A stretch of 33,128 nucleotides of DNA, from the NCBI GenBank assembly GCA_903847095.1, contig CAINCQ010000030.1:1-33128 (forward strand), given 5' to 3'. The DNA comes from an uncultured bacterium (GTDB taxonomy: Bacteria > Patescibacteriota > Minisyncoccia > Minisyncoccales > UBA5738). Under the pieces are notes generated by a model. It searched no databases. It had not been told where the DNA came from and worked only from the letters and a program-made list of their open reading frames with translations. The position numbers and the translations under genes are program-made. Of the stretch, positions 5,537 through 28,748 are shown piece by piece. How positions within the stretch are numbered: the first letter of the stretch is position 1; each line of letters opens with the position of its first letter.

Positions 5537-5650
5537 ACTGTAAGAAAGCTACCTACTTTCGCCTTGCGACTATCATCGGCCTTGGGAGATTTCACTTCTG
5601 TGTTCGAGATGGGAACAGGTGGAGCACTCCCAGTATAGCTTCCTTACAGT
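5537..5650 (-). rRNA. rrf: 5S ribosomal RNA
   Basis: The minus strand contains the conserved 5S core: a CCACCTG followed by TTCCCATCTCGAACACAGAA, then GAAA and a GGCGAAAGTAGGTAG tail. The ends pair (ACTGTAAG with CTTACAGT), giving helix I, so the boundaries are supported to within a few bases. It lies about 80 bases downstream of the 23S gene in the same direction. Confidence 0.92.
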
Positions 5651-5729
5651 ACAGACGACTGCACTGTTTGAATAGGTTAGTTTAAATCTTTAAAACTTGC
5701 AATAAAACAATACGATCACTAATTGCTAG

Positions 5730-8700
5730 CCAGGGCGTTTCACCTTATTAGTACTGCTCGGCTTAATTCCTTGCGGAACTTGCACCTGCAGCCTATCGAC
5801 CTCCTGTTCTTGAAGGAAGTTAATAAAGAGTTCTAATCTTGAGGTTGGCTTCGAGCTTAGATGCTTTCAGCTCTTATCCGTTCCCGACTTAGCTACCCAG
5901 CGATGCTCCTGGCGGAACAACTGGCACACCAGAGGTCAGTTCAACCCGGTCCTCTCGTACTAGGGTCGACTCCTCTCAAAACTCTAACGCCTGCGGTAGA
6001 TAGGGACCGACCTGTCTCGCGACGGTCTGAACCCAGCTCACGTACCATTTTAACCGGCGAACAGCCGGACGCTTGGGAGCTTCTCCACCCCCGCGCTATG
6101 ATGAGCCGACATCGAGGTGCCGAACAGGGCCGTTGATATGGACTCGTGGGCCCTACTAGCCTGTTATCCCCGGGGTAACTTTTGTTTGATGATCTCTGCC
6201 GATTCTAATAACCAGCATCGGTTCACTAAGTTCTGCTTTCGCATCTGCGCGGCATACACGCCTTGCAGTTAAGCCGGCTTATGGCTTTACCCGACATGCA
6301 CGATTTCCATCCGTGCTTAGCCGACCTTTAAACGCCTCCGTTACTTTTTAGGAGGCAAGCGCCCCACTTAAACTGCCCGAGTGACACTGTCACCTTTCAG
6401 ATTAGAATAATGAATTTTAAAGATGGCTATTTCACTGTTGGCTCCTCTATTCCCGAAAGAACAGACTCAAAGCCTCACCACTATTCTACGCATCAAAACC
6501 CAAAACTCAATATCACCCTACAGTAAAGCTCCCGGGGTCTTTCCGTCTAGCCGCAGGGAGTCGGTATCTTCACCGACATTACATTTTCACCGGATAATTC
6601 GTGGAGACAGTTCTCAGATCGTTATACCTTTCATGCGGGTCACAACTTACGTGACAAGGGACTACGCTACTTTAACACGGTCAGAGTTACCGCGGACGTT
6701 CACCTGTGGCTTAGACCGGTTAGCTACTCCCTGCCTTGCGGCAAAAAGCAACCGCCGATTTTAACGCACGGGCACTGGTCAGGTCTCAGCCCCTATATTT
6801 CCTCTTACGAGTTTAGCAGGGACCTGTGTTTTTGATAAACAGTCGCCTGAGAATCCTTCGCTGCGTCCCCCACACTGCTGTGGGGGAAAGGCATATTCCG
6901 AAGTTACGCCTACTTTTTTGCCTAGTTCCTTCACGAACTTTCATCCGTTCACCTTGGCAAATTTACGCCAATCCACCTGTGTCGGTTTACGGTACGATTC
7001 CCGCATAAAATTAACCCTCAAAGAAATTTTCTGGGAAACTTGCTCATTTGGATCTGTCCTGGCGAACCAGAATATTTTGCCGGCGCTTCTTCACCCTTGC
7101 GGGATGGTCATGCCGTCAACAAGAATCCAATCACTCGCCCAAACTACTAAGCTTCGTCAATCTTTGAAGTTCTATGCGGAAGGTCTGGAATATTAACCAG
7201 ATGTCCATCAGCTACGCCTCTCGGCTATGCCTTAGGATCGCCTAACCCTTGACTGATCAACATTGTCAAGGAACCCTTGGATTTTCGGTGTCAAGGGATC
7301 TCACCTTGATTGTGGTTACTCATGCCAACATTCTCACTTCCCAACGCTCCACCAAACCTTACGGTTCGACTTCGCTGCATTGGAAACGCTCTCCTACCAA
7401 ACCGCCTTGCGGCGGAGTCCTTATCTTCGGTATCAGGCTTTAGCCCCGTGAATTTGCGGTGCAAAACTCCTTAGCTAGTAAGCTATTACGCACTTTTTAA
7501 AGGATAGCTGCTTCTGAGCTAACCTCCTAGCTATCACTGGAATCTCACTTCCTTAGCTTGCACTTAGCCTGATTTGGGGACCTTAGATGAAGGTCTGGGC
7601 TTATCCCCTCTTGAGCGCGGACCTTAGCGCCCGCGTTCTTACTGCCTTGCCAATTTTCCGGCATTCGGAGTTTGATAGAAATATCTGAGTTTCCCCAAGA
7701 AATTTCTTTCAGTGCTCTACCTCCGGAAAGTGATGCAAGACGCTAACCCTAAAGTTATTTCGGAGAGAACCAGCTATTACCAAGCTCGATTAGCTTTTCA
7801 CTTCTTACCACAACTCATCCGAGAATTTTGCACGGTTCACCGGTTCGGTCCTTCCCCTACCTTTCGGGAGGGTTCAACCTGGTCATGGCAAGCTCGCCTT
7901 GGCTTCGGGTCTTTACCAACTAGTACCCCTTGCGGGATGCGCCCTATTAAGACTTGGTTTCCCTGTGCCTCCGCGTCAGAGACGCTTAGACAAACTAGTT
8001 AATAAAACTCGTTGGCTCGTTCTACAAAAAGCACCCCGTCACCCCACTTGCGTGGAGCTCCGAGTCTTTGTAAGCAAGATGGTTTCAGGTTCTATTTCAA
8101 CGGGGTCACCCCCCTACTTTTCACCTTTCCCTCACGGTACTTGTGCACTATCGGTGACTGGTTAGTATTTAGCCTTAGCTGTATAGTCCAGCTTGCTTCC
8201 CACAGGACTTTCGTTTCCCGTGGTACTTAAGGACAGGAGTTCAAAGCTTGCAATGATTTTCGCCGACGGGGCTATTACCCTCTATGGCTCCCCTTTCCAG
8301 GGTGCTTTGGCTAATCATTACATATTGATTGGCTCTGCCCCGCATAAATGCGGGGACACTCCGCCTTACAACACCCGCCCAAATTTTTGCACCGGATCAA
8401 TCGATCCGTCTCGCTTCATTCATAATACAAAAATTTAGGCGGGTTTAGGCTCCTCCCTTTTCGCTCGCCGCTACTAGGGGAATGTTTTCCGCTTGCGCGG
8501 AATTTTTTTTATTTTCCTCTGCGTACTGAGATGTTTCCCTTCCGCAGGTTCGCCTCCCGCGATTAATCGCGGGATTTTCTCGCTCAACACGAGAAAGAGT
8601 TTCCTCATTCGGACATCTCGGGATCAAAGGTTGCTTACCACCTCCCCCGAGCTTAACGCAGGCACGCCACGTCCTTCTTCGCCTTCCAGTCCCAAGGCAT

Positions 8701-8735
8701 CCACCATCTGCCTATAAAATACAACCCTTGGCTAG
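5730..8735 (-). rRNA. rrl: 23S ribosomal RNA
   Basis: The minus strand carries the full 23S landmarks. These include the 5' GGTGGATGCCTTGGGACTGG-like segment near 8700, the PTC-region and sarcin-ricin neighbourhoods near 6020 and 5920 (AGTACGAGAGGACC appears inverted at about 5950-5963), and end-pairing ATTGCTAGCC/GGCTAGCAAT at 5722-5731 and 8729-8738. Length is about 3.0 kb, close to normal, so I see no large intron. No tRNA lies in the spacer to 5S, and no 16S lies within the 24 kb upstream on this strand, so the rRNA operon is split. Ends are approximate to 10 bases. Confidence 0.95.
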
Positions 8736-11092: not shown

Positions 11093-11608
11093 CTATTCGC
11101 TAAAATTGATCTTTAAATTAACCTCTACGGACTCGACCATATCGCCTACTTCACCAAGCAGGCCAGAGAGTATCTCTATGATGGCATCATCCATACCTAG
11201 AATCTCCGCCGGATCCGGATCCTTATCTCCCGCTTCCGTGGGAAAATCGCCGTCCTCGACCGGAACCACTTCAACCTCCTCGCCTGAATACAGACCCTTC
11301 AGAATATCAACGACGCCTTGATGAATGCCGTCATCCTGCCACTCGGCAGCCACTATCTTGATCACATCAAGTTGGGTATTCTGGACTTCCAGCTTGTTGA
11401 CACCCGGAATCTCCAGGATCTTTTTTATCACTTCCTGTGTTTCGGCGGCGATTTTGAAATCGGCCAGGGCGGTGATATCAGTTATGTTGCAGATACCGGT
11501 GATCCCTTGCATCATTTGAACCTGCACGTAATAGGTCACCCGGCTTCTCTTGCTTTCCGAAGCATCGAACTTGATCCTCGGCTTCATTGCTTGCTTCCTT
11601 CTTGCCAA
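11093..11608 (-). CDS. Family B small protein with acidic C-terminal extension
   Basis: TTG 11608 is seven bases after AAGGAGG and gives 171 residues. The next ATG (11587) gives a product opening MKPRIKFDASESK, which aligns exactly with MKPGMRYDASKSG of the gene at 15560, so either start is possible. The core KILEIPGVNKLEVQ (about 63-76) followed by IVAAEWQDDGIHQGVVDILKGLYSG matches LFEIEGIKNIKVE and ASEWLADGIHEAICEVLKTDLYPG in 15560. This is the Nfu_N-like pattern LFxIxGV...W...I..L. Residues 115-171 are strongly acidic and have no counterpart in the relatives. No CxxC is present. Confidence 0.8.
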   Translation of the reverse strand: MARRKQAMKPRIKFDASESKRSRVTYYVQVQMMQGITGICNITDITALADFKIAAETQEVIKKILEIPGVNKLEVQNTQLDVIKIVAAEWQDDGIHQGVVDILKGLYSGEEVEVVPVEDGDFPTEAGDKDPDPAEILGMDDAIIEILSGLLGEVGDMVESVEVNLKINFSE

Positions 11609-15559: not shown

Positions 15560-15943
15560 TTATTTTTCCGGGAAATCGCACCCTGGCAAAGGACGAATAT
15601 CAACATTCTTATGGCCAGGATACAGGTCGGTTTTCAAAACTTCGCAGATCGCCTCATGAATGCCGTCCGCAAGCCATTCCGAGGCTATAATCTTTTCCAC
15701 GGAAATGATAAGATCTTCCACCTTTATGTTCTTAATCCCCTCGATCTCGAAAAGTTTTTTCACGGTTTCCATCGCTTTGGCCGCGGCCGGCGTATAACCT
15801 ATTGCCACCGCTGAATCGTTAGCGAAGCTGGCTTTGTCGATATTGTACTTACCGGTATAACCGCCCAGCAGCGAAGGCTGGACGTAATAAACCATTACAT
15901 TATTCCCGCTTTTACTGGCATCATATCTCATTCCCGGTTTCAT
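15560..15943 (-). CDS. Family B small protein (Nfu_N-like core), 127 aa
   Basis: The ATG at 15943 follows AAAGGAGGA. This is the cleanest family B member. It opens MKPGMRYDAS, has an opening strand VMVYYVQPSLLGGYT (about 17-30), then a variable loop, then AMETVKKLFEIEGIKNIKVE (about 57-76), then VEKIIASEWLADGIHEAI (about 82-99) and LYPGHKNVDI. The spacing of the opening strand, LFxIxGV and the W...I..L segment agrees with Nfu_N domains, which are about 85 residues long. The DAS motif and ends align with the 11093 product. There is one cysteine in the tail (GCDFP), also seen as GCAFP in 12359 and GDFP in 11093. Function is unknown. Confidence 0.82.
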   Translation of the reverse strand: MKPGMRYDASKSGNNVMVYYVQPSLLGGYTGKYNIDKASFANDSAVAIGYTPAAAKAMETVKKLFEIEGIKNIKVEDLIISVEKIIASEWLADGIHEAICEVLKTDLYPGHKNVDIRPLPGCDFPEK

Positions 15944-18054: not shown

Positions 18055-18603
18055 TTAGCGGGTAACACAAATTGCTGCACTGCCAGGCAATGCTCCCTCA
18101 ACGCCATTCGGTGCACAAACTTTAACCCTTCCGTTAGCATCCCTTTCAACAGTATATTTTGTATCATAAGTGTCGCCAGAGCCACTACATGCATCATTGG
18201 TACATTTATTTATTCCGTCAGTTGGGTCAACCGGTAATTCAGTTATATATGTTGGCACTAAGCAAGCGCGAATATTCTTCCCCGCCAATGAAAGGTTTTC
18301 AACACCGGCCGAAACGGGCAAATCTTCACCTGCCGTATAACAAACAGATGTGGTGTCGCTAGGATCTATAAATAGGCCTTTATTGTCAGCCATTCTTTGA
18401 CCAATCGCGTTCAAAATCGCATTGACGTTGCTGGTTCTTTGGGTGTTCCTTCCTTGGGCAAACTGCCGCGCCGGGTTAATGGCGATGATGACAATGGTGG
18501 CCAAGATGGCGATCATGCCGATCACGACCAGGATCTCGATCAGGGTGAAACCGGCTTGCTTCTTTAATTCTTTTTTATTTGTTTTGTTCATAATTTTTTT
18601 CAT
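18055..18603 (-). CDS. Type IV pilin-like protein
   Basis: The ATG at 18603 follows GGGAGGG; a second ATG at 18591 is possible. The prepilin signal is classical: a basic leader ending KKQAG, then FTLIEILVVIGMIAILATIV with Glu at mature position 5. The helix continues with AINPARQFAQGRNTQRTSNV, a stretch common in Patescibacteria pilins. The globular part carries five or six cysteines (CYTAGED, ACLVP, KCTNDACSG, VCAPNG, ICV), suggesting disulfides. It has its own strong promoter and terminator, unlike the rest of the pilus genes, which fits a highly expressed major pilin. The prepilin peptidase is not in this window. Confidence 0.9.
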   Translation of the reverse strand: MKKIMNKTNKKELKKQAGFTLIEILVVIGMIAILATIVIIAINPARQFAQGRNTQRTSNVNAILNAIGQRMADNKGLFIDPSDTTSVCYTAGEDLPVSAGVENLSLAGKNIRACLVPTYITELPVDPTDGINKCTNDACSGSGDTYDTKYTVERDANGRVKVCAPNGVEGALPGSAAICVTR

Positions 18604-18676
18604 TCCCTCCCGGTTCTTTTGTTTCTTCTTTCCTATCGAATCTGTCCGACCTTTTATTGTTTTTTGATTAATCGTG

Positions 18677-18705
18677 ATTATATACTGAATACCTTGTTTT
18701 GGCAA
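18677..18705 (-). promoter_or_regulatory. Promoter of the pilin gene
   Basis: TTGCCA at 18705-18700, a 17-bp spacer, and TATAAT at 18682-18677. It lies directly after the adhesin stop codon. Confidence 0.75.
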
Positions 18706-18728: not shown

Positions 18729-21700
18729 TTACTGCTCCGTCCAGGAAGTGATGTCAATGTTCGTCGGAGACGGGACCGGCGGAGGCGGCGCCGGATTGGC
18801 CGTGCAAATAATAACGCAGGTGTTAGTTTCGCCCTTGCCGACCTTACCCGTACAATCGGCGAATTCGCTAAAGCTGTAGTGTTCGTCGCTGCCGGTAGCA
18901 TCGGGCAAGGCAACTACGTGGTAATTTTGATCGGGAATAAGATTGGTCAACATAACGCCGGTGTCCGAACCAGCATAATCGGCCGGGGACGGATTGTCAA
19001 TCGTGAAGTGAAAATCAGGCGCGAGTTTTGGCACAAAATAGGTCGCGGCAACATTGTTGACCGAGGTCACCACCACCAAGGTGGCCGGAATGCTGTCGAG
19101 AGGCGGAGGCGGAGGCGGAGGCGACACACTGATGACCGGCGTGGTTGGAATATCGTCATAGATCAGCGAACAGGTTACACTCTCCCCGACCGCCAGATTA
19201 CTTTTGCAATTGTCGCTTTTGGTCAGCAAGTAATCGGGATCGGCCGGCGCGACAACCTCGTAATCTCCCGGATTGTGCAGGATCACATCAACCCCGGCCT
19301 CGCTGCCATCAAAGGCCGCGGGGGTTGGTGAGCCGCCGGTCACCGTGATCGCAAAACCGCCGGCGGTTTTCTTGTTCACAATATTATTGTCGTTGATAAC
19401 GTGAGTGACAACCGATACAGTCGTAGGCGGCGTGGCCGGAGGCTGGGGCGCGGGCGGCAGCGTGGGCGTTGGCGGCGTGGGCGGAATATCATAGTTGGAT
19501 ATCGTGCAGGTGATCGTTTGGCCGGCCGCAATCGTGCCCGAGCACATATCAGGATCGAAATAGGAATCGTATCCGGTCATCGCATTTTCGCTGACGCCAT
19601 AGCTTCCAGGGCTTAACGTAATTTTTTCGCCCGGCGCGGCAACGCCATTAAAAAATGTTTCCGAAGGATTGATGCCGGTCACGTTCAGCGAAAAATCGCT
19701 TGATTTTGCGGAACCGCCGTTGTCATTGTTGACGGATGTGATGACATACAACGTTCCGGTGGTCGGCGGCGTTGGCGGCGTGTAAGTCAGCGCCGGACAG
19801 ACTTTCTTGCCAATATCGGTAAATATCCCGGCCATATCGGCCGATGTCGGAGAAATGTAGAAATTATCCCCATCGCAATTTTCCCCCGAATTACCGGAAG
19901 CGCAATTCATATTCACGGTTTGGGTCGTGTAATGGATCTTTACAGTAACGTAATTCACGTTAACCGTGGTTCCACTGGAAGAGTTGTTGGTCAGGCGCAA
20001 AATGAATTGGCTGTCGGCAAAATTGCCGGAGTTCCAGACTTGTCCCCAAGTATCGGTTGAATTGTTGCCGCTCGGATTTTGTGCCGTTTCGGTCCCGGTC
20101 AAAATCGCTGTTTTTGAACCAGTCCAAGTACTGCCGCCGTTTGAGGACAAGCTCACAGATATCTGGCTGCTGCTGAGTAAAGGCGTGTAATTAATTACAA
20201 CCGATATTTGCGATATGCGGACTGAAGCCGAACTGGTGTTCGTTTTAATAATTCCAAAACCAACGGCAGATATATCTTCAACCTTGCCCCAAATTGCGTT
20301 CGTAATTGGATTTTTTGTCCAAGTCGGACCGCTAAAGCTACCGAAAGAAGATGATGATAAACTGCCGGTGACCGGATAATCGGATTGTGCGCCGGATCCG
20401 GTTCCGTTTTCGACCCGTAAAGAGAAAGTTGGCGTTCCGCTGCCGCCCTTTTGGCCGCGAACGCTAAGCGTAATCGAGTTGATCACGGAACCAGCCGGGA
20501 TCGCTGATGTATCCAATTTAAAGGTCTGGGCACTTCTATTCACATTGGTCGCAATATATGTAGAATCGGTATTGGTTGTGTCTTTTACCGCATTAATTTT
20601 GCCGGTATCGGAAGATAACCCACCATTCGTACCCCATTGCGAGGAAGGATCGAAATTACCGACTGCATTGGGATAGACTGTCGCGTTTTGCGCGCTTGTC
20701 GTAACCTTTCCATCAACAACAACTTCAATACCGTTAATGATGGCGGTACCGGGGATGGCGGAAACGCCGAAGTGAGAGTAAGTTTGCTGCTGGTTTAAAA
20801 CCGAGCTAGACGCGAAATTGCTATCATTGGCATAAACATAAGTCGGATTTGTCCAGTTGCTGGGCGTTGCGGTAGCGGTCGGATATTTTACTCCGGTATC
20901 GCTACTCGTCGTTATATAATTAACCGCGGAATTATTAGCCAAGGAAGCCAGATAATCCTGGCTCGTGCCATAACCGGTTGTTGCGACTACGCTTCCAAAA
21001 TTAACGGTGTAAATTTGAGTACCGGCATTTTTTGCATTGGTTGCTGCGGTCGCAGCGGTTGCAACAGCATCACAATTCCTGGTATTACAGGTATTGGGTT
21101 GACCATCTGAAAGCATTATTAGCACTTTCGGTTTTGTATCGGCTTTGCTTTGCAATTCAATATTGCTTTTAGTTATTGCGTCTTCAATGTTGGTGGAATA
21201 TTGATACGTCGCCAGATTGCTATCAATGTCATTTTTATAACTTGTGTAGTTAGTATTAAGATGATCGAATATGTTCGCACTGGCCGCAAAAGAACCTATG
21301 CCAAGCAAGGGATGGGTTAACAACGGGTTATAAAGGTCCACGAGTGCTTTGGCAGCAGCTCTTTCCCCCGCTATCCATTCGGGATGATTGTTGTAATAAG
21401 GATCATTATCACCAAACATACTGGGAGTACGGTCCAGCATCATGACCGTATCGGCGCAGTCGGGCACGGGCGGAGGATTTTGGTTGATGGCAATGGTACA
21501 GGTTTTAATGTCGCCGGACAATAAATTAACCGTGCCGTTGGCAGTACAATCCTGACCCCAACCGGATGCCGGTGTGTAGCCAGCGGGCACGCCCGAAAAA
21601 GTGACCGTGTGGGTACCTGGTTTCAAACTGCCGACGGCCGCACCCGAAGTCGTGACACCTCCGTCAAGCTTTAAAGCGATCGCTGATGGCGCCAGCGTGC

Positions 21701-23621
21701 CTCCATATTTGTTGTTAACGTTGGCCACCACGGCCAAAGTTGCGGTATTTAAGATGTCGTTATTCTTGATAACACAAACATACGCATTATAGTTTCCGGC
21801 CACGCCCTGACATAAGTGTCCATTAGTCCCCGAATTGTCATAGGATGTCTGATAACCGGACGGCCCGGTTTGAGTAATGTTGAAATTACCCGAATCGATC
21901 TCAACTGTCGTTCCACTCGCGCCGGGAAAAGTTGTTTGTGAAGGATGCCCGGCTGTTACATTAACGGTGAAATCCGCCGGTTTGGCAGACCCGCCATAAT
22001 TGTTTATTGTTTGGACCACCACCTTGACCGATGCGCGGGGTGCCGGCCGCAACGAGACGTTGATCTGACAGGTTTTGTAGCGATTGTACCCCGCAGACCA
22101 AGCCACTGTCCCGCCGGCAGCGCAATCACCGCCCCAAGCGGTAATATCGTAATCGCTGGGCAACCCGGAATAATAAACCTTATACGAACCTTGGAGCAAA
22201 CCGCTTTTTGAACTGCCAAAGTCCATATTTTCGGCAACTATGTTCCCGCCGCTGTCTTTGATACCCCAGCTGAATCCGGCCGGCGGCGTACCGGTAAAAG
22301 ATGCCGCCGCGGTCACAGTGAATGTGTTGGGTTGTTCGACATCAGTGATCACGCAAACATAACCGGTGCCCTTTTGGGCCGTTCCTTGGCAATTCTGATA
22401 AGTAGTTTTGTAATTATTAAAAGGTTTCTGCGTCACGTTAAAAGTGCCCGCATCGACATTAATTATCGTGCCGCCATTTCCGTCCGCGCCCGAATCCTCC
22501 CCGGCAAATTCGGACTTGGCGGGATTATTAGCGGCAACGTCAACGGTAAAATCGGAAGCTTTTGCCGATCCGCTATAACTGTTGACCACTTGCAATACGA
22601 CCTTCAACGCCGCCTGGCTGGAAACCGGATTTTTATTGTAGGCAAGGGCGCAAACCTTATTGTCCCCTTTTTTGATTAATACTTGGCCGTTGTCATAAGC
22701 TCCGGCGCAATCGGTCCCTGACCAATCCGAAACACTATAATTGGCCGTGTCATAGTTGCCGATCGCAAGGTTAAAGGGTTTATTGCTGCCGTCGGCGTTA
22801 AGTTCCGATTGCAGGATTATTTTTCGCGAGTCCTGCGGCATATATGACGTACCGTCGATAGTCAAGCTACCAGGCATAGTCCCGTCGCTGGAGGAAATGA
22901 TTACCGTCAGTGTCGCGGTTTGTGGTTTGATGGTGTTTAAAATGTTACAAGTTTTGTAATCGTTGGCCCCAAGCTGTAAATTGCCGGATGCGTCACAGTC
23001 GCCGGCATAAGCAGTGGTATAGTTAGCCTCATCCGCAGTTTCAGTGATCAGGTAGGCACCCTGCGAAAAAATCTTGGTATCGCCGGAATTCATTGAAACC
23101 GGACTTGCGCCTCCGGTAACCATTATCGGATTGAAATGGTCCGGAGTATCGGCCCCGACGCCATAAGTAAATACTCTCGCCGTAATTTTTGACGGGGCCG
23201 CGTATTGCGGATCCTGGATGGTGGAACCGGTCTCAATTTTACTGAAAGTGCCGTTATCCGCCGGATATTGGGCGGTGGCAACGATCCTGGCGGTCTTTTG
23301 GTGGTTAGGGTCGTATCCGGAAACCGGATCGTATACTATGGGCAGGATCCGGCAACCGGGAGGAGAAATAAAATCGCCGTTAACCGGATCGACGGTATTG
23401 TAGTTGGGATCCTCGGCGATCTTTAAAAGCGCGATATTGATGCAAGATTCGGCCAGTCCCTTGCTGATCTTTTTGTATTCGGCGTCAAGCGAGCCAAACC
23501 TTGAAAAATAACCGGCCTGGCTAACGCCAAAAGTGATACCGACCAGCATTATCGAGATAATGATGGCGGAGATCAATGCTATATACCCGGTTTGTTTATT
23601 TTTCAAAATTTGTTGGTCCAT
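18729..23621 (-). CDS. Large VWA-domain pilus-associated adhesin, 1630 aa
   Basis: The N-terminus is pilin-like (KQTGYIALISAIIISIMLVG at about 9-28) but has no Glu5, as in PilX-type minor pilins. From about 200 to 720 and again from about 1285 to 1600 run prealbumin-like beta repeats, each with VVxxVNNxxGGSAKxxDF, a PGxY/GxF turn and a closing TC.I stretch. A VWA domain starts near residue 722 (MMLDRTPSM, a DxTxS variant of the MIDAS motif; later VLIMLSDGQPNTC). It is interrupted after about residue 905 by about 330 residues of other beta domains and finishes with NFYISPTSADMAGIFTDIGK near 1250-1270. Proline-rich linkers join the C-terminal repeats, and there is no C-terminal anchor. It is probably the PilY1-like tip adhesin. 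Confidence 0.88.
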   Translation of the reverse strand: MDQQILKNKQTGYIALISAIIISIMLVGITFGVSQAGYFSRFGSLDAEYKKISKGLAESCINIALLKIAEDPNYNTVDPVNGDFISPPGCRILPIVYDPVSGYDPNHQKTARIVATAQYPADNGTFSKIETGSTIQDPQYAAPSKITARVFTYGVGADTPDHFNPIMVTGGASPVSMNSGDTKIFSQGAYLITETADEANYTTAYAGDCDASGNLQLGANDYKTCNILNTIKPQTATLTVIISSSDGTMPGSLTIDGTSYMPQDSRKIILQSELNADGSNKPFNLAIGNYDTANYSVSDWSGTDCAGAYDNGQVLIKKGDNKVCALAYNKNPVSSQAALKVVLQVVNSYSGSAKASDFTVDVAANNPAKSEFAGEDSGADGNGGTIINVDAGTFNVTQKPFNNYKTTYQNCQGTAQKGTGYVCVITDVEQPNTFTVTAAASFTGTPPAGFSWGIKDSGGNIVAENMDFGSSKSGLLQGSYKVYYSGLPSDYDITAWGGDCAAGGTVAWSAGYNRYKTCQINVSLRPAPRASVKVVVQTINNYGGSAKPADFTVNVTAGHPSQTTFPGASGTTVEIDSGNFNITQTGPSGYQTSYDNSGTNGHLCQGVAGNYNAYVCVIKNNDILNTATLAVVANVNNKYGGTLAPSAIALKLDGGVTTSGAAVGSLKPGTHTVTFSGVPAGYTPASGWGQDCTANGTVNLLSGDIKTCTIAINQNPPPVPDCADTVMMLDRTPSMFGDNDPYYNNHPEWIAGERAAAKALVDLYNPLLTHPLLGIGSFAASANIFDHLNTNYTSYKNDIDSNLATYQYSTNIEDAITKSNIELQSKADTKPKVLIMLSDGQPNTCNTRNCDAVATAATAATNAKNAGTQIYTVNFGSVVATTGYGTSQDYLASLANNSAVNYITTSSDTGVKYPTATATPSNWTNPTYVYANDSNFASSSVLNQQQTYSHFGVSAIPGTAIINGIEVVVDGKVTTSAQNATVYPNAVGNFDPSSQWGTNGGLSSDTGKINAVKDTTNTDSTYIATNVNRSAQTFKLDTSAIPAGSVINSITLSVRGQKGGSGTPTFSLRVENGTGSGAQSDYPVTGSLSSSSFGSFSGPTWTKNPITNAIWGKVEDISAVGFGIIKTNTSSASVRISQISVVINYTPLLSSSQISVSLSSNGGSTWTGSKTAILTGTETAQNPSGNNSTDTWGQVWNSGNFADSQFILRLTNNSSSGTTVNVNYVTVKIHYTTQTVNMNCASGNSGENCDGDNFYISPTSADMAGIFTDIGKKVCPALTYTPPTPPTTGTLYVITSVNNDNGGSAKSSDFSLNVTGINPSETFFNGVAAPGEKITLSPGSYGVSENAMTGYDSYFDPDMCSGTIAAGQTITCTISNYDIPPTPPTPTLPPAPQPPATPPTTVSVVTHVINDNNIVNKKTAGGFAITVTGGSPTPAAFDGSEAGVDVILHNPGDYEVVAPADPDYLLTKSDNCKSNLAVGESVTCSLIYDDIPTTPVISVSPPPPPPPLDSIPATLVVVTSVNNVAATYFVPKLAPDFHFTIDNPSPADYAGSDTGVMLTNLIPDQNYHVVALPDATGSDEHYSFSEFADCTGKVGKGETNTCVIICTANPAPPPPVPSPTNIDITSWTEQ

Positions 23622-23646: not shown

Positions 23647-24135
23647 TTATTTGCGCAGGTAAACGGTGGAAGAAAAATCGTCAGAGAGCAGAGCCCCGTT
23701 TGACGACAGGGTCGTGAGCGTAAAACCGTAATTTACGCCGGCGGGCCGGTCGCCGCTAGCCTCGATCTTCACGAAAAAAAGAACGGGAACTTTTTCGTTG
23801 CTATTGTTCAATTTGAGACCGGGATTGCTGTTTCTAAGCAAAAGTAAATTTTGCACGCCAACCTCGGGTTTGAATTCCAGCGTACCGGACGCGGTGGCCA
23901 GCTGTAAATCGCCGGCGGTTGGAATGGTGATGTTTTGGGCCTGCGATAGCGCCCAGTTGATCTTGGCGGCGATAAAATTGCCGTCTTCCTGCAACATCAC
24001 TTTCGCCTGGTTGCGGCCCGAAGATTCCAAAATGTTAAACACGCAAACGATCACTCCCGAAAAAATCATGCCGAACAACGCCAGATAGATAAGCGTTTCG
24101 ATCAAAGTGAACCCCGATTGTTTGATATTTTTCAT
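23647..24135 (-). CDS. Pseudopilin, PilW/GspJ-like
   Basis: The ATG at 24135 begins MKNIKQSGFTLIETLIYLAL, a full prepilin signal with Glu5, and is 162 residues long. After the helix the globular part reads as beta strands (VLFFVKIEASG, VNYGFTLTTLSSNG). Position in the operon and size suggest a priming minor pseudopilin of the J/W type. It lies two bases after the propeller gene and 25 bases before the adhesin, so all are co-transcribed. There is no obvious ribosome binding site because it is tightly coupled to the upstream gene. Confidence 0.85.
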   Translation of the reverse strand: MKNIKQSGFTLIETLIYLALFGMIFSGVIVCVFNILESSGRNQAKVMLQEDGNFIAAKINWALSQAQNITIPTAGDLQLATASGTLEFKPEVGVQNLLLLRNSNPGLKLNNSNEKVPVLFFVKIEASGDRPAGVNYGFTLTTLSSNGALLSDDFSSTVYLRK

Positions 24136-24137
24136 AA

Positions 24138-25427
24138 TTATGGCGCGATCACGAAAATTCGTCCCTGGCTTCCATCGCTAGATCCGACAAAAAAAGTATT
24201 CTTTTCACAATCAAAGACCGGCTCGATCCCGCTTCCGGAACCGGGCAGACTTAAAAATTCGGACGCGCTACCGCCGGGCGTCCAGGGAGACAACCCGCCC
24301 GTATCCCAAACCTGGAATTGGGTTTTGGTAAGCAAAAAGGCCAGATCGCGCGAAACCGACGCGGAAAGATCAAGGCCGGTGCGCACGATTACGCCGTCGA
24401 CGCTCTCGCCGATCTCTTTATTGCTTATCTCGGAAATATTCAGCGGGTCGCTGTTGTTTAAAATATAGAGTTCCGGACCCGACGAAGGAATTGTTCGGCC
24501 AAGATAAAGATTATCGCCCCGCAGATAAAGGCTTTTACCGTTGCCTCCTCCGGTCGGCGCAAAGTTGCCAACCGGTTTTGGACTGGAAGGATTGCTCACA
24601 TCCAGGACTATCAGATTGTTACTGTTGGGCGTAGCCAGATAAGCGTATTGATTACGGATATAGATCGCGTTGATATCGTTGCCAACCGCGTAGGTGCCTC
24701 CGCTCACCAAAGCCGGATTTTGCGGATTATGAACATCGATTATGTAAAATTCCGGAGCCAGCCCATCATTAGTTAAACCTAGGTAGATATACCCGTTTTT
24801 GTAAGCAATGCTGTTTCCATGCTGGATGCTAGTACCAATCGGCAAAAGCGTGTTTGTCATCATTACCGGCGGTACAAGATCAGATCCGCTTTCAGCCACT
24901 TTTATCACTTGGAAATGCTTACCAACGGTGCTGGCAACAAAAGCGTAGACCGGCTTGGGATTTGTTGGCCAAGCCGGATCTTCAGCCACGACTACGGCTT
25001 TTAGTCCACTGTGAACACCAAGGTCGTTGTCAACGCTGGAAATAGGCATAATATTTGACGGATCGGTGATGTCGAAAACAAAAAATGTCGGCACGGTCAA
25101 AGTTGAAGAACTGCTGTTATCGACCGTTATGTACAGCCTGTTTTTGTAAGCATCGATATCGGTGATCGGAAAATCGTCGGTCGGAAAACCGGCCTGATTG
25201 GCGATATCGGCGTTTGAAACGCTTTTTATGATACGCGGGATTTTCCAAGCTCCGGCATCGGGATTGCCGGCCGCATCAGTTAAAATCGAACTGCAGGTAT
25301 CGCCGCCGACAGCGTTGTTGAAGTTGGTGACCAAGGTTGTAAGTGTGGTTTTGCCGCGCCGGCCCGAATCCTCGGGATAATCGACGGTCGCGGTCACGAG
25401 CTTGGTGAAATAGTCCTTTTGTTCCAC
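24138..25427 (-). CDS. LVIVD-type beta-propeller, C-terminal part of a pseudopilin
   Basis: The frame opens with GTG 25427 immediately after an in-frame TAG and has no ribosome binding site. Its first 45 residues (DYFTKLVTATVDYPEDSGRR and TTLTTLVTNF) are the usual C-terminal strands of a GspI-like pseudopilin, so they belong with the frame at 25428-25691. The rest holds propeller blades of the LVIVD type: FFVFDITDPSN, FYIIDVHNPQNP, LIVLDVSNPSSP and LYILNNSDP, each preceded by a YIYLG-like or YAYLAT-like strand. One intact protein of about 517 residues would be a pseudopilin tipped with a propeller. Either the TAG is read through, or the gene is broken, or there is a sequence error. Confidence 0.8.
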   Translation of the reverse strand: MEQKDYFTKLVTATVDYPEDSGRRGKTTLTTLVTNFNNAVGGDTCSSILTDAAGNPDAGAWKIPRIIKSVSNADIANQAGFPTDDFPITDIDAYKNRLYITVDNSSSSTLTVPTFFVFDITDPSNIMPISSVDNDLGVHSGLKAVVVAEDPAWPTNPKPVYAFVASTVGKHFQVIKVAESGSDLVPPVMMTNTLLPIGTSIQHGNSIAYKNGYIYLGLTNDGLAPEFYIIDVHNPQNPALVSGGTYAVGNDINAIYIRNQYAYLATPNSNNLIVLDVSNPSSPKPVGNFAPTGGGNGKSLYLRGDNLYLGRTIPSSGPELYILNNSDPLNISEISNKEIGESVDGVIVRTGLDLSASVSRDLAFLLTKTQFQVWDTGGLSPWTPGGSASEFLSLPGSGSGIEPVFDCEKNTFFVGSSDGSQGRIFVIAP

Positions 25428-25691
25428 CTAGACACCGTAAGTAAACCGGTCGACGGTAGCGGCACTCACCGGATTAACCAGATTGAAATCCTTCCGGGCG
25501 TCGGCCTGGGCTTTTTCCATCAAGCCTTGCGCGATATTTATCGCCTCGGTATTGGCCTGGCCGTCAATGATCATTGACTGGTTGCCAAACGAAACGCCGA
25601 TTACCGCGGTAATCGCCATGATAAATATAAACATCGCCAAAAGTATTTCCAGCGTTGAAAAACCGCTTTGATCGTGTTTTTTTTGACTCAT
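25428..25691 (-). CDS. Pseudopilin, GspI/PilV-like, N-terminal part
   Basis: The ATG at 25691 opens MSQKKHDQSGFSTLEILLAM, a prepilin signal with Glu5. Upstream in-frame starts would add residues ahead of the leader and overlap the preceding gene. The helix continues AMFIFIMAITAVIGVSFGNQ, then the product ends at RFTYGV with TAG. At 87 residues it lacks the C-terminal beta strands of pseudopilins, and these are found in the same frame right after the stop (24138-25427). The interruption is a single codon, the only one in 517. See the finding at this position. Confidence 0.75.
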   Translation of the reverse strand: MSQKKHDQSGFSTLEILLAMFIFIMAITAVIGVSFGNQSMIIDGQANTEAINIAQGLMEKAQADARKDFNLVNPVSAATVDRFTYGV

Positions 25692-25731: not shown

Positions 25732-26322
25732 TTAGTTCGTCCAGCTAATCCGGCCCTCGGAATTAACATCGATAACCGACGTATTCCCGGCCTCGTCTTT
25801 TAAAATCAAGCTGGTACTTGCGGCATTCAACAGGTTGCCGCTCAGACGGTCAAAAATAATGTCTATCGGATCAGTGGTTGAGCTATCAACATATACCGTA
25901 AAGCTGGAAAATTGCGCCGGCTCGTCAACCAAAGCGTCATCGGCGGTATCATGAAAATTAACGCCCTGGAAAATGATGAATTTATCGTCGTCGGCGTTGC
26001 CTTTGGGATAAAATCTTACGCCGTGAGGTTTGCCGTCGGTACAGCTTGATCCGCGACAGACGTTATTGATCGACTGTGCCCGCGCCCGCTGGAGCATCGA
26101 CACTGCCGCGTCACGATCGTTGCGAAAAGAACCGGAGCGATAACTGTTCATACCGACCAGCATCGATAGGCCGGCAATAACCGCCAGCATCGCCATCACC
26201 ACCACAATTTCAAGCAGGGTGAAACCTTTTTGAGAATCACCCCGTTGATACCCGCTTTTTCCATTTACAGGAAGCGAGCCTTTCCGAATTAATTTAGGGA
26301 CGCAAATTTTGGGTGATACCAT
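25732..26322 (-). CDS. Pseudopilin, GspH/FimT-like
   Basis: The signal SQKGFTLLEIVVVMAMLAVI (Glu5 present) is typical, and the globular part has SMLQRARAQSINN, HGVRFYPKGNADD and a closing SGNLLNAASTSLILKDEAGN, as in H-type pseudopilins. The only in-frame standard start is ATG 26322, which overlaps pilC by 29 bases and adds a leader of about 30 residues. It also overlaps the next gene's reading frame slightly if that gene starts upstream of 25691. Translational coupling is likely, as no ribosome binding site is evident. Confidence 0.83.
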   Translation of the reverse strand: MVSPKICVPKLIRKGSLPVNGKSGYQRGDSQKGFTLLEIVVVMAMLAVIAGLSMLVGMNSYRSGSFRNDRDAAVSMLQRARAQSINNVCRGSSCTDGKPHGVRFYPKGNADDDKFIIFQGVNFHDTADDALVDEPAQFSSFTVYVDSSTTDPIDIIFDRLSGNLLNAASTSLILKDEAGNTSVIDVNSEGRISWTN

Positions 26323-27541
26323 AGATGGGAGTGATTATCGACATCGCGATGAAACCGACCAGCAGGCCCATGAAGATCATCAGGACCGGTTCGATGCTGG
26401 TGGACAGGTTTTTCGTCATATTGTTCATTTCGTCCTCGTGCATTTCGGAAAGATAAAGAAGGCTGGAGCTTAAATTACCGGCCGTTTCCCCGACCGAGAC
26501 CATCTGAGTGGCCATGGACGGGAAAAGCAAGCGGTCGCGCATACCAACAGATATCAATTCGCCCCGGCCTACGCCCTCCGAGATCCGGTAAAATTCCTTC
26601 CGGTAAGCACTGTTCCCGAGCGTGTCGCCAACGATCCGCAGAGACTCGATTATCCCGAGGTCGCTTTTCAGAAGCAAGCCCAGAGTTCTCGTAAAATTGG
26701 CAACGTAGTAGCTTCGAAACATCGAGCCGAAAAGCGGTACGCGCAAGCTATTGCGGTCAAGCCACAATTTAACGGCCGGAATCCTGGCGATAAGCGCGAG
26801 AAAAACGGACAAACCGGCAATCGCAGCCAGCAAAAACATCCAGTAATGCTGGAGGCCGTTGCTCACCGCCATCAAAAGCCGGGTGCTCCAGGGAAGCTGA
26901 GCTTTAAAACTGGCAAAAATCGGCAAAATTTTGGGAAAAACATAAACAGTCAGCAGTATCGTTATTCCGAAGGTGGCAACAACAATAAATGAAGGATAAA
27001 CCATGGCACCAACAATGTTCCTGTTTAATTCCTGTTTTTTCTTCAGTTCGTCGGCCAGGTAAGTGAGATTTTGCGTGAGGGTCCCACTGACTTCCCCGAC
27101 GCGGACGATATTGACCGCGAAGCGGCCAAAGATCTTTTCGTAGTCCTTTAACCCGTCACTTAAAGACTGGCCTTTTTCCACGCGCTCTTTAATGCTTTTG
27201 AAAATTTTGGCGGTACTGCGCGAATCGGCCTGCTTTTCCAGCATATCAAGGGCCGTAAGGATGGGAATCCCGGATTTGATGAGAATGGCCAAGCGCTTGG
27301 CAAAAAGGATCTGGTCCTGCACGGATATCCCGACGAAAAGATTGCCAAAAGAAAATTTCTTTTTTTCCACGGCGCTCTCGACGGCCGCGCGCGGATGATA
27401 GCGGCGCCCGAATTCCTGAACCGCCGCCGCTTCTTCAATCTTTGCCGGATTTTTCACGGCCAGCGGAAGAGACAGGGAAAAACTAGCGAATTTCGCTTTG
27501 ATGGCCTCTTTGGAAAAAATGTCTTTTTTTGAATTATTCAT
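26294..27541 (-). CDS. pilC: Type IV pilus inner-membrane platform protein PilC
   Basis: The product is 415 residues, normal for the GspF/PilC family. Two repeated T2SSF domains are visible: one from about 75 to 198 (FAKRLAILIKSGIPILTALD, then VRVGEVSGTLTQNLTYLADE) and one from about 275 to 400 (FTRTLGLLLKSDLGIIESLR, then VSVGETAGNLSSSLLYLSEM). Three membrane helices follow the family pattern: IVVATFGITILLTVYVFP, WMFLLAAIAGLSVFLALI and LMIFMGLLVGFIAMSIITP. The ATG overlaps the pilB stop by eight bases (ATGAATAA), which indicates coupling. It should recruit PilB to the membrane for pilus assembly. Confidence 0.95.
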   Translation of the reverse strand: MNNSKKDIFSKEAIKAKFASFSLSLPLAVKNPAKIEEAAAVQEFGRRYHPRAAVESAVEKKKFSFGNLFVGISVQDQILFAKRLAILIKSGIPILTALDMLEKQADSRSTAKIFKSIKERVEKGQSLSDGLKDYEKIFGRFAVNIVRVGEVSGTLTQNLTYLADELKKKQELNRNIVGAMVYPSFIVVATFGITILLTVYVFPKILPIFASFKAQLPWSTRLLMAVSNGLQHYWMFLLAAIAGLSVFLALIARIPAVKLWLDRNSLRVPLFGSMFRSYYVANFTRTLGLLLKSDLGIIESLRIVGDTLGNSAYRKEFYRISEGVGRGELISVGMRDRLLFPSMATQMVSVGETAGNLSSSLLYLSEMHEDEMNNMTKNLSTSIEPVLMIFMGLLVGFIAMSIITPIYGITQNLRP

Positions 27542-28748
27542 AGAGCATTCTCAAAACTTCTTCGATGGTCGTGATTCCGTTTTGAGCTTTAATAAATCCG
27601 TCTTCAATGAGAGTTATCATGCCTTGTTTGGCGGCAATCTTTTTTATTTCGCTGGCCGACGCCTTTTTAAGCACGGCTTCGCGAATGGATTCGTTGGGCA
27701 CCAACACTTCATGGATGCCGACGCGGCCCCGGTATCCCGTATTGCCGCATTGGTCGCAACCCTTTCCGAAATAGAATTCGTTGGTTCTACCCATTATCTC
27801 GGCGCCAATAATGCTCTTCAAGCTTTTCCTTTCCGCGTCGGTTATTTCTAGCAAGGTTTTGCAGTGTTCGCAAATTTTGCGCACCAGGCGCTGGCCGATG
27901 GCCACATTGACGGTGGAAGCAATGAGGTAGCTTTCGATCTTCATATCCAAAAGCCGCGGCAAAGTCGTGGCCGCGTCATTGGTATGGATGGTTGATAACA
28001 CCAGATGCCCGGTGAGAGCGGTATTGACCGCGATACCCGCGGTTTCGGCGTCGCGGATCTCGCCCACCATGATGATGTTGGGATCCTGGCGTAAAATACT
28101 ACGCAAGCCGGTGGCGAAAGCGAGGCCCGAACGGGAATTCACCTGGATCTGCTCAATGCCGTCGACGGCGTATTCGACCGGGTCTTCAATGGTAATAATG
28201 GAAACGTCTTTGGTATTTAAAATTTTTAAAAGGGTGTAGAGCGTAGTGGTCTTCCCCGAACCGGTCGGCCCGGTAGCCAGAATCATGCCGTAGGGCTTTC
28301 TGATGGCTTCGCTGATTTTTTCCGCGTTCTCGGCGGAAAATCCGAGCGACGACAAATTAAACATTTCGGAATTATCGGACAGCAGACGCAAAACCGCGTT
28401 TTCCCCATGGTAGGTTGGAACAACCGATACGCGGACGTCGATCGGGCGAGCATCGGTCCCGACGCGAAAACGGCCGTCCTGGGGCGCCTGGTGTTCGTCG
28501 GTGCGCAAACCCGCCATGATCTTGATGCGGCTGATGATCTCGGCGTGAAGCCGCCGAGGCAGATCGTGAGTATCGGAAAGCCGGCCATCGATTCGATAGC
28601 GTACGCGCAATGTTTCCCTTTGCGGATCAAAATGAATGTCCGACGCCCTCATTTCCTGGGCTTCGTCAATCAGCAAAGAAACAAGTTTAATGATGGATAC
28701 TGCCGCTCCTCCCTTCGCCAGTTCCTCTTCGACAAATCCTTGGATCAT
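27534..28748 (-). CDS. pilB: Type IV pilus assembly ATPase PilB (short form)
   Basis: The product is 404 residues. Motifs are complete: ASDIHFDP near 35, Walker A GPTGSGKTTT at about 160-169, Asp box ITIEDPVEY at about 185-193, Walker B IIMVGEIRD at about 225-233, His box TGHLVLSTIHTND at about 247-259, and the four-cysteine zinc site CEHC/CDQC at about 293-296 and 331-334. The zinc site marks PilB/GspE rather than PilT. The usual N-terminal GspE_N domain (about 150 residues) is absent. A promoter at 28781-28809 and a terminator just upstream show that no N-terminal sequence is missing. GGGAGG lies about 17 bases before the ATG, so initiation might use a nearer non-AUG codon. Confidence 0.94.
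   Translation of the reverse strand: MIQGFVEEELAKGGAAVSIIKLVSLLIDEAQEMRASDIHFDPQRETLRVRYRIDGRLSDTHDLPRRLHAEIISRIKIMAGLRTDEHQAPQDGRFRVGTDARPIDVRVSVVPTYHGENAVLRLLSDNSEMFNLSSLGFSAENAEKISEAIRKPYGMILATGPTGSGKTTTLYTLLKILNTKDVSIITIEDPVEYAVDGIEQIQVNSRSGLAFATGLRSILRQDPNIIMVGEIRDAETAGIAVNTALTGHLVLSTIHTNDAATTLPRLLDMKIESYLIASTVNVAIGQRLVRKICEHCKTLLEITDAERKSLKSIIGAEIMGRTNEFYFGKGCDQCGNTGYRGRVGIHEVLVPNESIREAVLKKASASEIKKIAAKQGMITLIEDGFIKAQNGITTIEEVLRMLYE

Follow-up and report, generated by a model that had tools for sequence, protein, structure and literature searches.

The window, that is, the whole stretch of 33,128 nucleotides that we analysed, carries on its minus strand a run of type IV pilus genes in which one reading frame is divided by a TAG codon. 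The genes and features concerned are as follows, in the order in which they are read.

27534-28748, minus strand: PilB/GspE-like assembly ATPase
26294-27541, minus strand: PilC/GspF-like platform protein
25732-26322, minus strand: H-like (GspH/FimU-type) pseudopilin
25428-25691, minus strand: 5' part of the divided gene, a pseudopilin start with the class III signal motif SG-FSTLE, a long hydrophobic helix and a first strand; 87 codons plus TAG
25428-25430, minus strand: the in-frame TAG, at residue 88, inside strand 83-91 of the pilin sheet, where relatives have variable polar residues
24138-25427, minus strand: 3' part of the divided gene in the same frame, holding the other pilin strands and an LVIVD-type (Pfam) beta-propeller with about seven blades; 429 codons without a further stop
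23647-24135, minus strand: J-like (PilW-type) pseudopilin, assigned from an N_methyl match and gene order
18729-23621, minus strand: large K-like (PilX-type) protein containing SpaA_2 repeats as well as a von Willebrand A (VWA) domain bearing a DRTPSM MIDAS-type motif
18055-18705, minus strand: major-pilin-like protein, start uncertain

A pilin gene divided within its second strand

The sequence-only reading had proposed that a contiguous, in-frame TAG separates a pseudopilin from its propeller, and that the intact protein would have about 517 residues. Both points hold. The TAG at 25428-25430 divides a single 517-codon frame running from 25691 to 24141 on the minus strand; the codons across the junction are TTT ACT TAC GGT GTC TAG GTG GAA CAA AAG GAC, and the frame is open on either side, from 25769 to 25428 and then from 25427 to 24138. 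Reading through the TAG from the ATG at 25691 gives 517 residues, a count that includes the stop codon.

The upstream fragment has the G-FxxxE class III signal motif (as SG-FSTLE) followed by a long N-terminal helix, and G10, T13 and E15 are invariant across the 24 aligned sequences. Pfam N_methyl does not match this fragment, and its matches to PilV/ComGE models are weak and under the curated cut-offs. The downstream fragment passes the gathering cut-off for the LVIVD repeat (PF08309; 30.2 bits against 20.2), and scores 24.3 bits with the choice-of-anchor B family (TIGR04312), below the curated cut-off of 100.

An AlphaFold model of the read-through sequence, built with 24 sequences and a placeholder residue at the stop (pLDDT 85.6, pTM 0.85), has a helix at residues 13-67, a four-stranded sheet at 75-122 and, from about residue 153, a propeller with some seven blades. 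The TAG, at residue 88, falls within the second strand of this sheet (83-91). One chain with a pilin sheet and, behind it, an additional folded module is thus seen in the model and, as described below, in the intact relatives, while in the window's sequence the TAG interrupts it. The same two sources bear out the earlier proposals that pseudopilin and LVIVD propeller form one protein and that the downstream frame opens with pilin-type strands. With the sheet broken at this strand, a pilin that carries a propeller is not expected from either fragment: judged by the model, the upstream stub lacks most of the sheet, and a product restarted downstream lacks the helix and the signal.

Foldseek against the PDB returned generic WD40-like and other propellers, with no functionally informative match, and a profile search of PDB sequences gave no match. 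The PilY1-type propeller (PF05567) had no Pfam match in the window's protein, nor any in the five genomes of the family, in a search whose controls were uninformative.

Relatives with one uninterrupted frame

A scan of GTDB genomes yielded 27 loci of the propeller-pilin gene, from Nomura-, Zambryski-, Kaiser-, Staskawicz-, Doudna-, Nealson-, Taylorbacteria and others. The fusion is encoded as one ORF in 25 of them; one of the other two is cut by a contig end and one (locus L099, in genome G004) has a TAG inside the propeller. With a class-wide search added, there are at least 32 distinct intact fusions, all from Paceibacteria/Parcubacteria, and a search of neighbouring genomes turned up single-ORF relatives within the window's genus, within its family and within its order. 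Both halves of the divided frame align to single-ORF relatives across the junction at 25-54% identity, the nearest orthologues being 48-54% identical, and the frame is the sole clear case of its kind in 333 kb of the genome; the split frame is more than a chance arrangement.

Most loci share one gene order: ATPase, platform protein, H-like pilin, propeller pilin, J-like pilin, K-like protein and often a major pilin. The propeller-pilin gene therein sits between the H and J pseudopilins, which is the position of the GspI/PilV-type I subunit. Since relatives encode both parts as one ORF, mostly in this conserved pilus cluster, the fused state is ancestral. Instead of the two parts as separate genes, the relatives have one ORF. 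Two ORFs are indeed what the window's sequence presents, as expected of a small pilin beside a soluble propeller protein; however, the junction has neither a gap nor spare residues, and in the model neither part holds a complete pilin domain. As the ancestral state, separate genes are refuted by the single-ORF relatives, and we consider that reading of the window's two ORFs extremely improbable.

At the position of the TAG the relatives have D, E, K, S, T or N, making it a tolerant polar position. No relative shares the window's stop; all 24 aligned relatives have a sense codon at the site. The gene of G004 has a single in-frame TAG (4985-4987 of L099), at a different codon of the gene from the window's, in the propeller, at a site that is also tolerant and mostly polar; that assembly is only 71% complete. 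A TAG therefore interrupts the propeller-pilin gene in two of the five family genomes, a higher share than expected, or in one of four when the window's genome, which was selected for its stop, is left out; the intact relatives beyond the family all lack such a TAG. This difference is suggestive at most. As a control, the PilC homologues of the class had no TAG or TGA stop within the homologues among the matches listed, and a few TAA counts; these are probably terminal, because a TAA inside the homologue of genome G330 proved to be its terminal stop. Sister strains were sought in viral contigs by DNA pattern and by protein, in scans that may lack the window's own and very near records, and none was found.

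Ordinary TAG usage and the origin of the stop

The draft genome comprises 42 contigs and is 96% complete; stop usage and split genes were scanned in a 333-kb sample of it (L077-L091). None of the 44 tRNA genes found has a CUA anticodon, although at 96% completeness a missing tRNA is conceivable. The RF1-type release factor is intact, with GGQ and PLT (PxT-type) motifs; its score is slightly under the NCBI equivalog cut-off, as it is in all five family genomes. TAG terminates 42 of the 261 strong ORFs in the sample, where no second clear in-frame split gene occurs: on inspection, the other in-frame neighbouring coding stretches looked like normal adjacent genes, mostly with a start codon close behind the stop, or like antisense noise. 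TAG thus serves this genome as a normal stop, and genome-wide recoding is rejected on the absent CUA tRNA, the intact RF1, the TAG-ended ORFs and the lack of a second split gene in the sample. No tRNA-Asn was found among the 44 either, probably owing to the incompleteness of the draft.

Leaky or programmed readthrough of this one TAG, giving a small amount of full-length protein sufficient for a rare tip protein, would accord with the open downstream frame, which evolves at a rate similar to that of intact relatives, with the tolerant polar position of the stop and with the TAG in the same gene of G004. The tRNA set and RF1 argue against it. Moreover, no relative has a stop at the same place, the TAGs of the window and of G004 lie at unrelated positions, and the RNA flanking the stop is no more stably folded than shuffled sequences (z -1.1). 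We regard readthrough as improbable.

It had also been pointed out that the downstream frame lacks a ribosome binding site. This is true and yet uninformative: Shine-Dalgarno-like 4-mers precede 11% of long ORFs, the figure for random positions being 12%, and the genuine start at 25691 is without one too. Since real starts here show no Shine-Dalgarno signal, a missing one carries no weight, and with no enrichment in the sample translation starts seem to be chosen otherwise. The absence of such a site is accordingly no objection to termination at the TAG followed by reinitiation at the GTG that immediately adjoins it, yielding two polypeptides that work jointly. Many relatives, however, have valine at this codon (GTT, GTG or GTA), which marks it as an ordinary strand residue. 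In the model the split cuts a strand of the sheet in two, and the second product would have no export signal. Such a restart is highly improbable, in our view even more so than readthrough.

The age of the stop can be approached through the frame behind it. Under neutrality, a further downstream stop should arise after a median of 0.021 substitutions per site, and in 95% of cases by 0.088. All of the roughly 428 codons after the TAG are still open, so the change is either recent or an assembly error. With the topology fixed, the window's tip accounts for 1.43% of total tree length upstream of the stop versus 2.14% downstream; the ratio of 1.49 lies within the spread of intact genes (0.44-6.67), and this comparison of branch lengths gives no clear relaxation downstream. 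Because the downstream part is without clear decay, the stop would be young, false, or tolerated with the protein still being made.

Taking these results together, the best explanation is that the intact gene encodes a modular minor pilin, broken here by one nonsense codon that is either a recent mutation or an error, a reading to which we give a probability of roughly 0.85. Within it, a recent real mutation or strain polymorphism is somewhat the better bet. The other branch, in which a base-call or assembly error (a mixed-strain consensus included) hides a true gene that is intact, is rather unlikely by our estimate: the assembly is a draft in 42 contigs, the frame is otherwise undamaged and every relative outside the family is intact, but the 333 kb contain no other clear single-base gene break, and so the assembly is not generally error-ridden. 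Four origins had been left side by side in the sequence-only reading. That it is one of two, a recent nonsense mutation or a base or assembly error, stays likely; readthrough loses ground on the missing CUA tRNA, the intact RF1, the unshared stop and the lack of RNA structure. Phase variation has no support: by eye, the site shows no repeat or slippage tract.

On this reading, the ancestral product is an I-type (GspI/PilV-position) pseudopilin of a type IV pilus cluster with a beta-propeller grafted at its C terminus. Translation should now terminate at the TAG and leave a stub of 87 codons, which covers the membrane helix and roughly one and a half strands of the sheet. No propeller would then be made or, upon a restart, it would come without an export signal, and its display, along with a presumed adhesive role, would probably be lost. 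The pilus could still assemble, minus this propeller, if the I-type function is dispensable or if another pilus system substitutes. With three PilC-like platform matches, this genome may have other pilus or secretion systems; a second propeller gene of the same kind was not found in it.

Modular pilins and proposed tip adhesion

The protein belongs to a known class, the modular pilins, of which more than 1,200 proteins in 264 architectures have been described, CPR bacteria included (PMC8179133), and which expose additional domains on pili, the tip being the probable site (PMC8179133; PMC9934059). The main text of neither study mentions LVIVD, the propeller type found here. From pilin biology, the window's protein when intact would be placed at the pilus tip. 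It resembles PilB and PilC of Streptococcus sanguinis in having an N-terminal pilin module and a C-terminal globular module that is likely tip-exposed (PMC8179133; PMC9934059). In those proteins, however, the extra module is a VWA or lectin domain, whereas here it is an LVIVD propeller and the gene is interrupted.

Another parallel is PilX2 of the Saccharibacteria strain TM7x, a CPR minor pilin with a C-terminal propeller, seven-bladed in that case; its deletion roughly halved host binding, and PilX2 is non-essential (PMC12206443). The repeats of PilX2 are of the RCC1 type and its signal is non-canonical, while the present protein has LVIVD-type blades, the I position among the pilins and the G-FSTLE motif. 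By analogy, an intact copy would act as an adhesin at the tip and could be lost without necessarily killing the cell, and the propeller domain of the relatives probably grips surfaces or hosts.

The VWA domain of the K-like protein recurs in loci L092, L100, L108, L109 and L112, and weakly in L117, and the K-like neighbour often carries SpaA_2 repeats too. Most of the VWA-bearing K-like proteins have a DRT/DRS-type metal-binding motif; in L100 the motif lay outside the aligned stretch. As in the PilY1/PilC tip adhesin (PF05567), a beta-propeller would be presented by a minor-pilin tip complex. PilY1 of Pseudomonas aeruginosa combines VWA and propeller in one protein (PMC8179133), a single non-pilin protein with a propeller of another family, whereas here the propeller sits on an I-like pilin and the VWA domain in its K-like neighbour. 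This comparison suggests that two pilins may share between them a PilY1-like tip in these very small organisms, which are presumed episymbionts.

The TAG is probably nothing out of the ordinary, and the intact gene is of greater importance: many Paceibacteria lineages retain a minor pilin with a propeller within a conserved pilus cluster, and this pilin and the VWA-bearing K-like protein are candidate genes for host attachment. It is conceivable, though in our view of little likelihood, that low-level TAG readthrough, or frequent mutational loss and regain, restricts propeller display to some cells or pili in this family; if so, pressure on this gene would account for the TAG that G004 carries at a second site.

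Elsewhere in the window, 23S and 5S rRNA genes lie at 5540-8732, with no 16S gene alongside and no tRNA in the window. The minus strand between 11093 and 16000 encodes several small proteins of about 125-170 amino acids that by eye seem related (for example at 11093-11608 and 15560-15943), a possible family expansion.
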